A DNA stretch of 64,000 nucleotides from Aurantimonas endophytica (GTDB taxonomy: Bacteria; Pseudomonadota; Alphaproteobacteria; Rhizobiales; Rhizobiaceae), in the NCBI RefSeq assembly GCF_014196845.1, contig NZ_JACIEM010000001.1, positions 992,001 through 1,056,000 of the forward strand. The letters are read 5' to 3'. Of the stretch, positions 829 to 7,430 are shown one piece after another. Positions within the stretch are counted from its first letter, which is position 1. Every line of letters begins with the position of its first letter. The notes under the pieces are model-generated. The model did not search any database and was not told where the DNA came from. It was given only the letters and a program-made list of their open reading frames with translations. A program made the position numbers and the translations under genes.

Positions 829-1812
829 ATGGGCTACTACGCCAGCATCTACAACAGGGTCCAGATCCGCGGCCCCTTCGATCCGGGGGTTCCGCTACCG
901 GCCGGGGATGTGCCGCGGATCCAGGCCAAGGGCTTCAGCCACCTACTCGGCAAGATCGGCGACCCGCAGCTGGGGCCCCTCTATCTCGGCTGGTCGGGCG
1001 CTGCCTCGCTCGCCTTCGGCTTCATCGCCATCGAGATCATCGGGCTCAACATGTGGGCGTCGGTGAACTGGGACCCCTACGCCTTCGTGCGCAACATCGC
1101 CTTCCTGTCACTCGATCCGCCGCCAGCCAAATACGGGCTCAACCCGCTGGTGCCGCTGGGCGACGGCGGCTGGTGGATCCTTGCCGGCTTCTTCCTGACC
1201 ATGTCCGTTCTTCTGTGGTGGGTCCGCTCCTATACCAGGGCCCGGGCTCTCGGCATGGGCACCCACACCTCATGGGCCTTCGCCTCGGCGATCTTTCTGT
1301 TCCTCAGCCTCGGCCTGTTCCGGCCGGTGCTGATGGGCTCCTGGTCGGAGGCGGTGCCCTTCGGCATCATCACCCACCTCAACTGGACCGCATCGGTCTC
1401 GGTCCTCTACGGCAACTGGTACTACAACCCGTTCCACATGCTCTCGATCGTCTTCCTCTACGGCTCGACGATGCTGTTCGCGATGCATGGCGCGACGATC
1501 CTCGCCGTGTCCCGCTTCGGCGGCGAACGCGAGGCGGAGGAGATCGTCGACCGCGGCACCGCGGCAGAGCGCGCCGGCCTGTTCTGGCGCTGGACCATGG
1601 GCTTCAACGCCTCCTACGAATCCATCCACCGCTGGGCCTGGTGGTTCGCGGTGCTGACCACCTTCACGGGCGCGATCGGCGTGCTGCTCACCGGCACGGT
1701 CGTCGACAACTGGTACCTCTGGGGCGTCAGGCACGGCATCGCGCCGGAGTACCCCTCCGTCTATCCCGCCTTTCCCACCCCTGACGACACGATGAGGAGC
1801 GTCACGCAATGA
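829..1812 (+). CDS. pufM: Photosynthetic reaction centre M subunit
   Basis: PufM (327 aa) is the second heterodimer chain of the type II reaction centre in the intracytoplasmic membrane. Visible features are the N-terminal [14 protein letters not shown] segment, five membrane spans, and the conserved [11 protein letters not shown] stretch that carries a bacteriochlorophyll/iron-region His. The ATG at 829 follows GGGAGGACC, and an open frame extending further upstream is only pufL read in another phase. The stop overlaps the start of pufC by 4 nt (ATGA), indicating translational coupling. Length is normal for the family. Confidence 0.98.
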
Positions 1813-3323
1813 GATCGGCTCCCATCGTCCTTTCCATCGTGGCAGGCGCCCTCGCCCTGCTCGGCCTGGCGATCCCGCCCTGGATCCTGCCACCGATCGA
1901 GACACTCGAGACCGGCGCGCCGGGCACCGGCCTGGCGCAGCTCCGGGACGCCGACCGCCAGCTGCAATATGCGGCGCTTCCGGTTCCGCTGGATCCGGCC
2001 GACAACACGGACAGCCCGCTCGCCAGCGAGATCTACGAGAATGTCCAGATTCTCGGCAATCTCACCGACGCGGAGTTCACCCGGCTGATGCTGGCGATCA
2101 CCGAATGGGTCTCGCCGGTCCAGGGCTGCGAGTACTGCCATGACCTGACTTCAGAGGAGGGCTTCGCCAGCGACGCCCTGTACACGAAGGTCGTGTCCCG
2201 CACGATGCTGCGGATGGTCCAGCACATCAACGCTCAGTGGGCCGAGCACGTCGCTCCCTCCGGCGTCACCTGCTATACCTGCCATCGCGGCGAGAACGTG
2301 CCGCCGGCGCTCTGGTACAGCCAGAATGAACCAACCGGCGACCAGTTCCTCGGCAAGCCGCAGTCCTGGCATCTTGAGGCCGCGTCGATCACAGAGTTCT
2401 TCTCCGACGTGCCCTATAGCCAGTATCTGCAGGCCGATCCCCTGTCGGCTAACATCGAATCCCGCACGCCCTTCCCCGGCCCGGACAGTCCTGGCACGAC
2501 CGTGGAAGGCGCGGAGAACCTCTACATCTTCATGATGCAGATGTCGGAATCGCTCGGCGTCAACTGCACCTACTGCCACAATTCCCGTTCCTTCCAGGAC
2601 TGGACCCAGTCGACCCCGTTCCGCTGGATCGCCTATTGGGGCATCCGGATGGCGCGCGACATCAACGTCAACTACATCGAGCCGCTGGCCGCGGTCCTGC
2701 CCGACAATCGCAAGGGCCCGCTCGGCGACCCGGGCAAGGCCAATTGCGGCACCTGTCATCACGGCAACAACAAGCCGCTCGGCGGCTACAATCTGCTGGA
2801 GCATTATCTGGCCGGCCTCACCGTGGACGGACAGCCGCCGGACCCAGGGCCGAAGCAGGCGATCATCCTCGGCGAAGCGGTTCCCGTGGCGCAGGCAGGA
2901 CCCGACGCGGCGGCAGAACAACCCGCAGTCGTCGCGCCGCCGATCGCCGAGGACGCGATCGAGCAGTCGGTGGAACCAGCCGGCGAAGGCACCGGACTGC
3001 CGCCGGCGGGCGAGCCGGATGCGCCGGCCGCCGACCCGACCTTGGGCGGCACGGTCACGCCGACTCCGGCCGCACCGGCCGATCCGGCGCCAGCCCCGCC
3101 CGGCCCAAGCGACGCCCCGTCGCCGGATGGGTCGGCGCCGCAGGCGCCGGTTCCCGGCAGTCCCGAGGTGACGCCCGAAGCTTCGCCAGCGCCCGGAGCG
3201 CCGGAGGCCTCCGACGCGCCCTCGATGGGCCAGCCGCCGAGCAACCCGCTGCCTGTAAATCCGCAGCCAGGGCCTGCGGCAGATCCGGCGCCGACCACGA
3301 TCGTCCCCGCGCCTCAAAACTGA
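1809..3323 (+). CDS. pufC: Reaction centre tetraheme cytochrome c subunit with a long Pro/Ala tail
   Basis: PufC (504 aa) re-reduces the photo-oxidised special pair on the periplasmic side. Four CXXCH haem motifs are seen at residues about 107, 155, 253 and 313, with Met-containing helices before the first three, as in tetrahaem PufC. The N terminus is one hydrophobic helix (residues 5-25) without a lipobox Cys, so the protein is probably membrane-anchored by an uncleaved helix. Usual PufC ends soon after the fourth haem; here about 150 further residues (from about 345) are extremely rich in Pro and Ala with many Gly, Asp and Glu. No pufX follows. The gene is last in the puf operon and is followed by a terminator. 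Confidence 0.96.
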
Positions 3324-3936: not shown

Positions 3937-5940
3937 CTAGTGGACGATCGCCGGCCGTAGGCCTTGCGCGTCGAGGGCCGGAGCCATGGCAGACCTGCCC
4001 TCGGCGGGACCCGCTTCGGCAACCAGATCGGCGAAGATCTGGTCGAGCCGAGCCATGTCGAGGTTCCGGCCGATCGCCAAAGCGCGTGGCGCCTCGGACG
4101 GTGTCGGCAGATGTGCCGCGATGGAAGGCCAGCCGCCGGCGACATCGAACCGCAGCCAGCCGCCCCTCGACCGCACGATCCCCTTCATCCGGGCGATCTC
4201 GCCGACCTCGCCGGCGGCTATCACCGCCAGCGTCTGGCGCAACCGCTCCGCGTCGACGGGTCCGGCAAGGTGACGGCTCCAGGAGGAAAAGCCCATCGCA
4301 GCCTCTTCATGGGCATGATCATGGCCGTGACCGTTCCCGTTGCCGCCTGCGTCGATGGGGTGATGAGCATGCGCGTCGTGGCCGTGAGAATGCGCGCCGA
4401 GATCGTGGGAACGCGCGTCGTGATCGTGCCCGTTATGATCATGGCGATGCGCAGATATTTCGGCGGGCGTGGCAGCAACGGCGTCTGCCGCCGGCCCGGC
4501 ACCGTTGCGCGCCGCGCCGGCGTGACCGCCATGGCTGTGGCCGCGATCCAGCGCGTCAACGCCCTCCGTCTCCCGCCAGGTCGTCAGCGCGGTGGACGTA
4601 TCGATCCCGGCCTCGACCACGCCGTAGCGGGCCGGCAGGATCTCTGCCGCCGGGTTGAGCGCCGTCAGCGTCTCGCGCACCGTCTCGCATTCGCCGGGCG
4701 TGACGAGATCGGTCTTGTTGAGGATGAACACCGGGGCAAGCTTCGCCTGCAGGCGGAAATACTCCGGCATGCGGGCGAAATCGCGCAGGAAGGCGCCCGC
4801 GTCGATGACGGTGTAGAGCCGCAGCGACCGCAAGAGGTCGCCGATCTCCCGCTCGTGCAGGACGCGCAGCAGCGACGCGACGTCGGCGACGCCGGACGGC
4901 TCGATCAGGACGCGTTGCGGCTTGATGCGCGCGACCACCTCGCGCAGCTGCGCCGACAGGTCCTTGCGCAGCGAGCAGCAGATGCAGCCATTGGCGAGTT
5001 CGACGACGTCGGCACCCTGGCCCTCGAGCAGCGAACCGTCGATGCCGAGCTCGCCGAAATCGTTGACGAGGACGACTGTCTTCACGTTCGGGTCGGCCTC
5101 GGCCAGCATCCGCCGCAATGTCGTCGTCTTGCCGGCGCCGAGGAAGCCGACGACGATCTCGGCATCGAAGGGCTGGCGCTCGCCGCGCGATTTCAGCCCC
5201 GGCGCCCAGATCGCGCCGGACGGCATCGGCAGCACCAGCATCCAGTGCTCGAGGATCGCCAGGCCCATCAGCACGGCGAGGAAGGTGTAGCCGGCGCGCT
5301 CGAAGGCGCTGGCGCCCTCCGCCATCGCGGCGACGACGAGCAGCGCAGTGATCACCGTCGAGATCGTCACCGAGAACGGAAACAGCAGGTTCATCGAGCG
5401 CTTGGTCAGGAAGCTCTTGAGGAACTCCAGATGCTCCGGGAGGAACTCCTCGTTGAGGTTGCGCACACCGAGGAAGACGTTGAGCTTGGCGCTCTGGTGC
5501 ATCCACCACAGCACCATGAAGGTCCACATGCCGATCTGGTTGGGTCCGCCCCAGGTCAGCCAGACGACCGCCACCGCCGCCGCGATGATCGCCAGCTCGT
5601 GGTAGAGGCTGGTCTGGATGGCATGGCCGAAATGCTTCCAGCCCCGGCAGTCTTCCGGACAGGGCTGCTTCCGGCTGCCGGTGACGTAGCCCATGTAGAA
5701 GCTCATCTCTTGCCAGCCCCAGGCCAGCAGCCCGAAGGTAAATGCCCAATAGGCGCCGGCGATCGTCGCGTCGCCCGCCGTGCGTTCGAGACCGATCAGC
5801 GAGATCGCGAAGATTACCGTCGCGCCGATCATCGAGTATTTGAAGGTCCAGCGCGGCAGGCCGTCGAGATAGATGATGAGGACCGTCGATGCCCACCAGA
5901 CGCCAAGAGCGAAGAGGGCTGGATAGAGATACTCGGTCAT
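3937..5940 (-). CDS. puhE: PuhE fused to a COG0523/CobW-type metal-chaperone GTPase
   Basis: This 667-aa protein has two parts. Residues 1 to about 245 are PuhE (DUF3623, photosynthetic complex assembly protein): about six to seven membrane spans and the conserved YWAFTFGLLAWGWQEMSF and GPNQIGMWTF stretches. From about 258 a CobW/COG0523 GTPase follows: Walker A GFLGAGKT (265-272), metal-binding CICC (319-322), EPSGVAD (347-353), NKTD (408-411). A His/Asp-rich segment (about 467-545) precedes the CobW C-terminal domain (about 550-645). COG0523 proteins deliver or sense Zn, Co or other metals; PuhE aids reaction centre assembly. The ATG has GGAG upstream. It is the last gene of the superoperon, 105 nt after acsF. 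The frame is continuous, with no sign of frameshift. A role in metal supply for pigment or AcsF assembly is inference. Confidence 0.9.
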   Translation of the reverse strand: MTEYLYPALFALGVWWASTVLIIYLDGLPRWTFKYSMIGATVIFAISLIGLERTAGDATIAGAYWAFTFGLLAWGWQEMSFYMGYVTGSRKQPCPEDCRGWKHFGHAIQTSLYHELAIIAAAVAVVWLTWGGPNQIGMWTFMVLWWMHQSAKLNVFLGVRNLNEEFLPEHLEFLKSFLTKRSMNLLFPFSVTISTVITALLVVAAMAEGASAFERAGYTFLAVLMGLAILEHWMLVLPMPSGAIWAPGLKSRGERQPFDAEIVVGFLGAGKTTTLRRMLAEADPNVKTVVLVNDFGELGIDGSLLEGQGADVVELANGCICCSLRKDLSAQLREVVARIKPQRVLIEPSGVADVASLLRVLHEREIGDLLRSLRLYTVIDAGAFLRDFARMPEYFRLQAKLAPVFILNKTDLVTPGECETVRETLTALNPAAEILPARYGVVEAGIDTSTALTTWRETEGVDALDRGHSHGGHAGAARNGAGPAADAVAATPAEISAHRHDHNGHDHDARSHDLGAHSHGHDAHAHHPIDAGGNGNGHGHDHAHEEAAMGFSSWSRHLAGPVDAERLRQTLAVIAAGEVGEIARMKGIVRSRGGWLRFDVAGGWPSIAAHLPTPSEAPRALAIGRNLDMARLDQIFADLVAEAGPAEGRSAMAPALDAQGLRPAIVH

Positions 5941-6045: not shown

Positions 6046-7131
6046 CTACCAGGCGGGGACGAGCCGGCTGTCGACCGGGATTTCGTTGCGGATGACCGGC
6101 AGCGTGTAGAGCCGCGCGAAGGTCAGGGCGGCGGACGCCTTGCCCTTCCAGGCCATCAGCCGCCCGGCGATCCCACCCTTTTCCTGCCCCGCCGCCACGG
6201 TGCGGCTTGCCGCGAGGATCCGCTCCAGGCCGGCGCGGAAGCGGGGATCGTCGATGTCGAGCATGATCGGGAAGACCTGGCGCGAGATGTCCGAAGTGAT
6301 GCGGAACACCCGGTAGTCGTACGCCGTCGGGTCGAGGCCGAGGGCCTTGTGGAACTCCGGCCTGGCATGATCGCGGACATACATCGTCGCGAACACCGCC
6401 AGCAGGAAGAACCGGATCCACAGCTTGTTGCGCCCTTCGAGGACGCTGCGGTCCGCGCGCATCAGGAGCGAGAACGCCTCGCCGTGGCGGAACTCGTCGT
6501 TGCACCACTTCTCGAACCATTTGAAGATCGGGTGGAAGCGGCGCTCGGGGTGCTGCTCGAGATGCCGGTAGATCGCGATGTAGCGGGCGTAGCCGATCTT
6601 CTCGGACAGATAGGTCGCGTAATAGATGAATTTCGGCTGGAAATAGGTGTATTTCTTGGCCTTGGTCAGGAAGCCGAGATTGACGCCGATGCCGAATTCC
6701 TTGAGCGCGTCGTTGATGAAACCGGCATGGCGGGCCTCATCGCGGCTCATCAGCGAGAACAGCTCGCAGATGTCGGGATTGGTGCCACGCCGCTTCATCT
6801 CCTTGTAGAGCACGCAGCCGGAGAATTCCGCCGTCAGGGACGAGACGAGGAAGTCGACGAACTCCTTGCGCAGGCCTTCGGGCAGGCTGTCGAGATCGAT
6901 CGTGTTCCAGTCGGCGTTGCGCCGGAAATGGCCCTTGTTGGGGTCCGACTTCAGTTCGGCGATGAGCTCGTCCCATTCGCGGCGCACGCCGGAGACGTCG
7001 ACCTTGTCGAGCTTCTCGAAATCGGTCGTGTAGAAGCGCGGCGTGAGCAGCGTATCCTGCTGCGCCGCCTTTGTGGTCTCGTTGAGCGCGTCGGCTCCGG
7101 CCGACGCGGCAATCGATGCATGCGCGTTCAT
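6046..7131 (-). CDS. acsF: Aerobic Mg-protoporphyrin IX monomethyl ester cyclase
   Basis: AcsF (361 aa) is the oxygen-dependent di-iron monooxygenase that forms the fifth (E) ring of bacteriochlorophyll. Di-iron ligands are visible: E102, E132-x-x-H135 (DEARH) and E213-x-x-H216 (DEFRH). Length is typical of the family. The start codon overlaps the stop of the upstream small gene (bciE) by 4 nt. Its presence indicates that pigment can be made under oxygen; the anaerobic alternative BchE is not in this window. It is part of the puhABC-bciE-acsF-puhE end of the superoperon. Confidence 0.97.
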
Positions 7132-7430
7132 AGGCTTGCCCTTTCCGAAAACGAGAACTCGCAGAGTTCCATGAATTCGAGATCGCCGGTCATCCGGACC
7201 CAGCCTCTCTCCAGCCAGCCGGCGCGCTTGATGGTGGCGACGCGGCGCACGCTGGCGCGGTGGCCGTACGGGACCTCGACCGGCGCCCCGTGCACCAGCA
7301 CCTCGTCGCCGGGCTCGACGGTGACGCCGCCGTCGAAGCGCACATGCGCCTCGAGGCTCTCGAAAGTGTTCACCACCTCGACGGTACAGCCGACCTCTTC
7401 GCGGCGGCCGCCTAACAGTGCCTGGATCAT
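7128..7430 (-). CDS. bciE: Small AcsF partner, BciE-type cyclase subunit
   Basis: The 100-aa product starts [12 protein letters not shown] and contains a conserved hydrophilic core ([16 protein letters not shown]) and an aromatic, acidic C terminus. No signal or membrane span is visible. Size and exact position, wedged between puhC and acsF with 4-nt overlaps on both sides, match BciE, the small protein needed by the alphaproteobacterial class of the aerobic cyclase. The assignment rests on position, length and general resemblance rather than on a catalytic motif. It would act in the cytoplasm or at the membrane with AcsF. Confidence 0.75.

Follow-up and report, generated by a model that had tools for sequence, protein, structure and literature searches.

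PuhE is a photosynthesis protein whose mutant phenotype is known but whose mechanism is not, and many GTPases of COG0523 (the G3E family, with YjiA, ZigA/ZagA, CobW and Nha3) have no known client. IcmF, in which a GTPase and a mutase are joined, is soluble and handles cobalamin. Here, we describe a gene in which PuhE is followed by a full COG0523 GTPase, a linker rich in His and a CobW_C domain. It lies in a 64,000-nucleotide stretch of the Aurantimonas endophytica genome (contig NZ_JACIEM010000001.1, positions 992,001 to 1,056,000), hereafter the window, whose numbering is used throughout. Sequence comparison establishes the fusion, its motifs, their co-conservation and the selection acting on them. 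Of the explanations considered, the one ranked first, with a probability of roughly 0.4, is that the GTPase may be a metallochaperone acting in cis and loading a putative cytosolic site of PuhE itself. There is a precedent for a G3E chaperone fused to its target, as passages of one source describe IcmF as a fusion of MeaB; they also implicate the CxCC motif of COG0523 in metal binding and report a prediction that the C-terminal domain binds the target (PMC9164220).

The open reading frame (ORF) has the following parts:
3937-5940, minus strand: puhE::cobW ORF, ATG to TAG, 667 amino acids, zero internal stops.
5182..5940, minus strand: PuhE membrane domain, residues 1-253 (Pfam DUF3623, E 7e-106; TIGR03055; AlphaFold2 model; charge pattern of the loops).
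4585..5169, minus strand: COG0523 (G3E) GTPase domain, residues 258-452 (Pfam cobW and structural match).
5125..5148, minus strand: Walker A motif GFLGAGKT, residues 265-272, read in the window protein.
4975..4989, minus strand: GCICC (the CxCC metal motif), residues 318-322, read in the window protein.
4312..4548, minus strand: His/Asp-rich linker, residues 465-543, with 18 His and 9 Asp in 79 residues.
4024..4290, minus strand: CobW_C domain, residues 551-639 (Pfam E 4e-8, 33.6 bits against a cut-off of 22).

Pfam thus calls DUF3623, cobW (residues 262-435, E 3e-41) and CobW_C in the same ORF, and the protein passes the NCBIfam PuhE equivalog TIGR03055 with 305.6 bits against a cut-off of 164.05. 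The GTPase domain matches YjiA, HypB and UreG in structure and carries the further motifs EPSG (347-350) and NKTD (408-411). It has no start of its own, because there are zero in-frame ATG, GTG or TTG codons in the stretch of residues 239-275 and the P-loop begins at 265. In the AlphaFold2 model, CobW_C is folded, with a predicted local distance difference test score (pLDDT) of about 96-98, and most of the linker is predicted to be disordered (pLDDT <50). These results confirm a genuine single-frame fusion. They bear out a preliminary description, made from the letters of the window alone, which had reported one unbroken 667-codon frame with Walker A, CICC, EPSG, NKTD and a CobW C-terminal domain; the His/Asp-rich stretch that it placed at 4306-4542 also exists, a few bases away.

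Compared with described COG0523 proteins, the window protein has all the expected features (GxxxxGKT, NKxD, CxCC and CobW_C), but its GTPase follows an N-terminally fused photosynthesis protein with seven transmembrane (TM) helices. It falls far short of the equivalogs for cobalamin CobW (TIGR02475, 102.4 against 332.1 bits) and ZigA (NF038288, 96.1 against 600 bits). With other PuhE proteins it shares the TIGR03055 score, the seven helices and the place after acsF in the puh operon; the GTPase and CobW_C are additions. Unlike IcmF, it combines a GTPase bearing the metal-associated CxCC motif with a membrane protein for which no cofactor is known. No account of such a fusion was found in the literature on puhE, DUF3623, COG0523 and CobW with bacteriochlorophyll, a coverage outside which most subscription papers fall. 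Domain databases presumably display the architecture.

The fusion is not private to the window genome and is scattered among phototrophs. A protein-pattern scan of genome contigs returned 56 loci, of which 49 had PuhE and 45 had PuhE and the GTPase in one frame, four of these being broken or cut (L057, L066, L067 and L069). The fetched loci hold 73 frames with both parts, 53 of them distinct, and 50 with a complete GTPase and CobW_C. Named carriers are Jiella, Aurantimonas, Fulvimarina, Pararhizobium mangrovi, Lichenibacterium, Lichenicoccus, Acidiphilium (including A. rubrum, Acetobacteraceae), Acidocella and, in Chloroflexota, Kouleothrix. Further fusions occur in metagenome-assembled genomes (MAGs) labelled Acetobacteraceae, Proteobacteria, Ferrovum, Croceicoccus, Thiodictyon and Acidobacteria, labels that may be wrong: the 'Acidobacteria' contig and genome G876, a member of the same family group as G393, have identical frames. 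In surveys for DUF3623, 27 of 385 genomes in a class sample and 31 of 398 in a phylum sample scored over the cut-off, with three fused in each sample and two of these shared. In the family of G393, a genome with the same locus as 'Acetobacteraceae bacterium KSS8', DUF3623 was matched in 73 of 220 genomes: 18 are fused (in two of them a contig end truncates the GTPase), 7 have only CobW_C, 2 are cut, 2 hold PuhE fragments and 44 are unfused.

This recurrence across many loci means that the fusion is no assembly accident. A sequencing error at the junction, which the preliminary description had entertained, fails as an explanation, as relatives carry the same one-frame fusion; the independent check rests on them, the window being part of the same assembly as its genome (G000). 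Nor are the two halves always separately encoded. A separate COG0523 frame beside PuhE was found in the fetched flanks (mostly 1.5-2.5 kb per side, longer for genome-contig loci and shorter at contig ends) of no PuhE locus except L057, and no intermediate with two neighbouring genes was seen in these flanks. No plasmid record contained 80% of the protein at a single location. At L057 (6001-8149), from the complete genome of Jiella pelagia, the frame is broken inside the GTPase and the remainder lies in another frame, either as a pseudogene or through a sequencing error. One MAG (G850) has two different PuhE::CobW copies (L052 and L053), the second without acsF in front, and genome G923 has two unfused PuhE (L188 and L195).

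The candidate metal site lies in the PuhE half, in which two groups of residues are of interest:
5623..5661, minus strand: CPEDCRGWKHFGH, with C94, C98, H103 and H106, putative cytosolic metal site in the TM3-TM4 loop (co-conservation and covariation).
5596..5601 (H114 E115), 5707-5709 (E78) and 5245-5250 (E231 H232), minus strand: residues near-invariant in PuhE.

AlphaFold2 predicts seven membrane helices, with pLDDT 85.1 and a predicted template modelling score (pTM) of 0.77 for the full-length protein, and 92.5 and 0.90 for PuhE alone. Lysine and arginine are concentrated in loops 1-2, 3-4 and 5-6 (means of 1.5, 2.2 and 4.1 in fused rows) and scarce in loops 2-3, 4-5 and 6-7 (0.7, 0.2 and 0.2). 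By the positive-inside rule, the N-terminus of PuhE would therefore be outside and its C-terminus inside, so that the GTPase and the TM3-TM4 loop are predicted to share the cytosolic side. This agrees with the membrane tethering of the GTPase suggested in the preliminary description. The PuhE fold has no clear match among solved structures, which does not in itself make it a new fold, and a sequence search of the Protein Data Bank with a whole-protein profile (423 positions, about half its rows without the GTPase) gave no match. The TmAT acyltransferase fold, with 10 TM helices (9 in TraX), does not suit a protein with seven in its model; passages of PMC12423673 describe DUF3623 as having seven TM helices and a different fold, and as taken out of the TmAT clan.

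The four residues form a Cys-x3-Cys-x4-His-x2-His tetrad (CCHH), reported here as new for fused PuhE. It is found in 45 of 45 fused rows of an alignment of PuhE proteins, in none of eight rows with CobW_C but no GTPase, and in 18 of 98 rows called unfused, where independence of the four residues would give about one. When pairs were ranked by mutual information with average product correction (MI-APC), C98-H106, C98-H103 and H103-H106 came 3rd, 6th and 7th of 30,383, with C94-C98 at 39 and C94-H106 at 98. In a tree-based count of co-change, C98-H103 ranked first of 23,275, with six shared changes. The tetrad thus appears to have been gained and lost largely, if not strictly, as a unit. We take its spacing to indicate a zinc site, from its resemblance to zinc knuckles. 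E78, H114, E115, E231 and H232 are each kept in 99-100% of 151 rows, are invariant in alignments of 90 and 72 rows and, by their helix positions, would lie near the cytosolic membrane face. A further residue, H148, is linked to the fusion (45/45 fused rows against 10/98 rows called unfused) and covaries with Y82 and S111, the three pairs ranking 1, 2 and 5 by MI-APC.

The sequence motifs of the GTPase are conserved. Among the 50 distinct complete fusions, Walker A and an NKxD-like motif are present in all, an EPSG-like motif in 49 and CxCC in 47. The ratio of nonsynonymous to synonymous substitution rates (dN/dS) of the GTPase was 0.03-0.16 in all 12 tested pairs with CxCC, which indicates purifying selection. 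Most complete distinct fusions with CxCC (42 of 47) have a linker with at least 8 His. The three without CxCC (L064, L065 and L180) have only 2, 1 and 1, and the GTPase dN/dS of the pair L064/L065 is 0.43.

Shortened forms also occur. Eight frames run from PuhE into CobW_C without the GTPase, one of which (L073) still has a His-rich stretch; of three such frames submitted, Pfam confirmed CobW_C in two (L164 and L073), and L177 passes our own profile only. CobW_C can therefore persist without the GTPase. A profile of the fused type gives these tail-only domains 77-114 bits, compared with 11.6-16.9 for 12 standalone rows and no match for the other standalone rows, and by these scores the tail-only CobW_C is of the fused type. 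Six standalone CobW_C domains stand apart from them on a tree (100/100), on which few columns and weak forks leave the placement of the tail-only forms unsettled. The standalone CobW_C closest to the fused type (61 bits) belongs to L078 (2695-4834), a pair of COG0523 genes from Lachnospiraceae, the first of which has a very long His-rich linker.

The existence of forms without the GTPase or without CxCC is what might be expected of a tunable regulatory module. The fusion could accordingly be a sensor of metal status, in which zinc or iron on the His-rich linker, CxCC and the tetrad alters the braking of bacteriochlorophyll production by PuhE, with no delivery involved; a 2005 study cited in PMC11762602 reportedly supports such a role. 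However, the retained GTPase motifs and low dN/dS point, if weakly, to turnover, and we regard a sensor as unlikely.

All fused PuhE proteins appear to be related through one event. In a quick PuhE tree of 151 rows (thinned from 162 at 95%), all 45 fused rows fall inside one 57-row branch with a support of 97 in the Shimodaira-Hasegawa-like approximate likelihood ratio test (SH-aLRT). The branch also holds nine true unfused rows, one tail-only row, L072 (undetermined) and L151 (fused). Four rows first called unfused (L151, L159, L072 and L207) run off a contig end, L151 after reaching the GTPase P-loop, so that 94 of the 98 can be judged as unfused. A GTPase tree, also quick and with long-branch warnings, places 43 fused rows on one side of a branch (SH-aLRT 87) and 47 sampled standalone rows on the other. 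In 120 genomes of the G393 order, five fused matches scored 149-319 bits, against 119.5 for the highest-scoring standalone protein. These patterns fit a fusion that arose once, spread both vertically and horizontally, and was later lost several times. The seven other tail-only rows lie outside the fused branch, at three places, and a single clade of CobW_C-only and full fusions was mildly rejected by the approximately unbiased test (p-AU 0.034, on a selection of 80 of the 151 rows). The trees are compatible with an early full fusion followed by many losses, and also with CobW_C having been gained separately.

The repeated loss within the fused clade (9 unfused, untruncated rows among 57) could mean that the fusion is a neutral accident and that the attached GTPase acts as an ordinary COG0523 protein. 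The window genome has other genes of this kind, with 10 cobW-family matches in all, the fusion included. Yet the fusion has been kept over many genera and in a photosynthesis cluster of Chloroflexota, its GTPases form their own branch, and they are under purifying selection, all of which makes a neutral accident very improbable. Two of the further cobW-family matches adjoin each other in the window genome (G000:C1:1302502-1304285).

The minus-strand order in the window is bchM, an ORF judged by eye to be PucC/LhaA-like, puhA, puhB, puhC, a 100-codon ORF, acsF and puhE::cobW, with pufL, pufM and pufC on the opposite strand (other names from NCBIfam). The immediate neighbour, given for context only, is:
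6046..7131, minus strand: acsF, directly upstream of the fusion (TIGR02029, 507.5 bits).

The 100-codon ORF (7128-7430) has matches in many puh loci and none in NCBIfam. The product of pufC (1809-3323) continues past its PufC family match (28-333 of 504) with about 170 C-terminal residues rich in Pro and Ala. The order puhABC-hyp-acsF-puhE is already in print, in passages of PMC3176799 that show no fusion.

The preliminary description was right to place the fusion beside acsF and the reaction-centre genes, but took this location as an argument for AcsF and the reaction centre as clients. In such an arrangement, PuhE would be a mere membrane anchor, and the GTPase would deliver metal in trans to AcsF, to the reaction-centre iron or to the metal of (zinc-)bacteriochlorophyll. 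Indeed, 143 of 151 rows have acsF directly upstream of their puhE, and a search of 12 carriers or relatives found AcsF in 10. However, the neighbour is shared by fused and unfused puhE alike (96 of 98 rows called unfused), and therefore is no marker of fusion. Jiella, Aurantimonas and Fulvimarina are marine or mangrove genera and not acidophiles; with such carriers, zinc-bacteriochlorophyll is unsupported as a general reason for the fusion. A point in favour of trans delivery is that the carrier Acidiphilium rubrum makes this pigment, by a route of zinc insertion that passages of PMC12654162 call uncertain.

Carriers apparently without these clients also tell against trans delivery. The fusion on contig L069 of Kouleothrix aurantiaca is preceded by a PufM-like ORF, which scores best with the bifunctional L/M model (M half, 388 bits, under the cut-off), by a cytochrome resembling PufC that also misses the cut-offs, by an ORF like the major facilitator superfamily, and by bchG and bchP, which both pass theirs. 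ORFs of the same size and order occur in a second Kouleothrix MAG (L048). PuhA was not matched in either Kouleothrix genome, and was present in the other five of seven genomes searched. AcsF was not matched in the L069 genome or the Thiodictyon MAG, both drafts in which genes may be missed, and was matched in the second Kouleothrix MAG. BchE scores over its cut-off in the L069 genome and is in two pieces, each below the cut-off, in the Thiodictyon MAG. AcsF and the H subunit are therefore weakened as fixed clients of the fused GTPase; as obligatory ones they are unlikely and were rejected as a general explanation. We consider delivery in trans rather unlikely.

PuhE itself, absent from the first interpretation, is a better candidate client. 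In the proposed in-cis loading, the fused GTPase would gather a transition metal, most likely Zn(II), through the His-rich linker and CxCC, and pass it to the cytosolic CCHH site of PuhE, next to the near-invariant Glu/His residues; this transfer would depend on GTP, and CobW_C would serve for docking. Metal-loaded PuhE would then play its usual part in supplying pigment and assembling photosystems. The His-rich linker and the spacing of CCHH make zinc the preferred metal; iron is also possible. We infer metal binding, the identity of the metal, the direction of transfer, delivery in cis and the role of the loaded protein from several lines of evidence. The GTPase is seen only on tetrad-bearing PuhE in the thinned rows, the tetrad being absent where PuhE carries only CobW_C. 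Loss of CxCC accompanies a His-poor linker. The GTPase motifs are kept at low dN/dS, the tetrad covaries and is predicted to lie on the same side as the GTPase, some carriers lack detectable AcsF and PuhA, and IcmF provides a precedent.

Several observations weigh against in-cis loading. The tetrad is present in 15 of 94 unfused rows after correction, and is thus older than the fusion. It is kept in the three fusions without CxCC and in most unfused rows of the fused clade, and therefore does not depend on the GTPase. Five of the 47 CxCC-bearing fusions have fewer than 8 linker His (L040 0, L044 1, L046 1, L094 3 and L048 6). Covariation is also uneven: C94-H103 has an MI-APC rank of 4,286, the co-change ranks of H103-H106, C94-C98 and C98-H106 are 62, 918 and 4,676, and MI-APC corrects for phylogeny only in part. 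An independent-pairs test of fusion against tetrad was not significant, with 3 usable pairs and thus no power.

The idea of a dedicated metal-assembly factor, put forward in the preliminary description, consequently survives in its motifs, its tether and the selection on it, but its argument from the neighbourhood for the named clients is not supported. The fusion, together with a likely metal site of its own, suggests that PuhE may work with metal received from its attached partner. It names a candidate client for a COG0523 GTPase and a candidate cofactor chemistry for PuhE, and the CCHH motif makes single-residue tests possible. More broadly, and somewhat improbably on present evidence, the PuhE family could be membrane metalloproteins controlling bacteriochlorophyll supply, with a near-invariant Glu/His site to which CCHH was added in some lineages. 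PuhE-CobW would then be the first COG0523 metallochaperone with its client fixed by covalent fusion, and metal loading would gate photosystem assembly. The finding touches on the allocation of metal among haem, bacteriochlorophyll and zinc proteins in purple bacteria, and may have a bearing, as yet unproven, on zinc bacteriochlorophyll in Acidiphilium.
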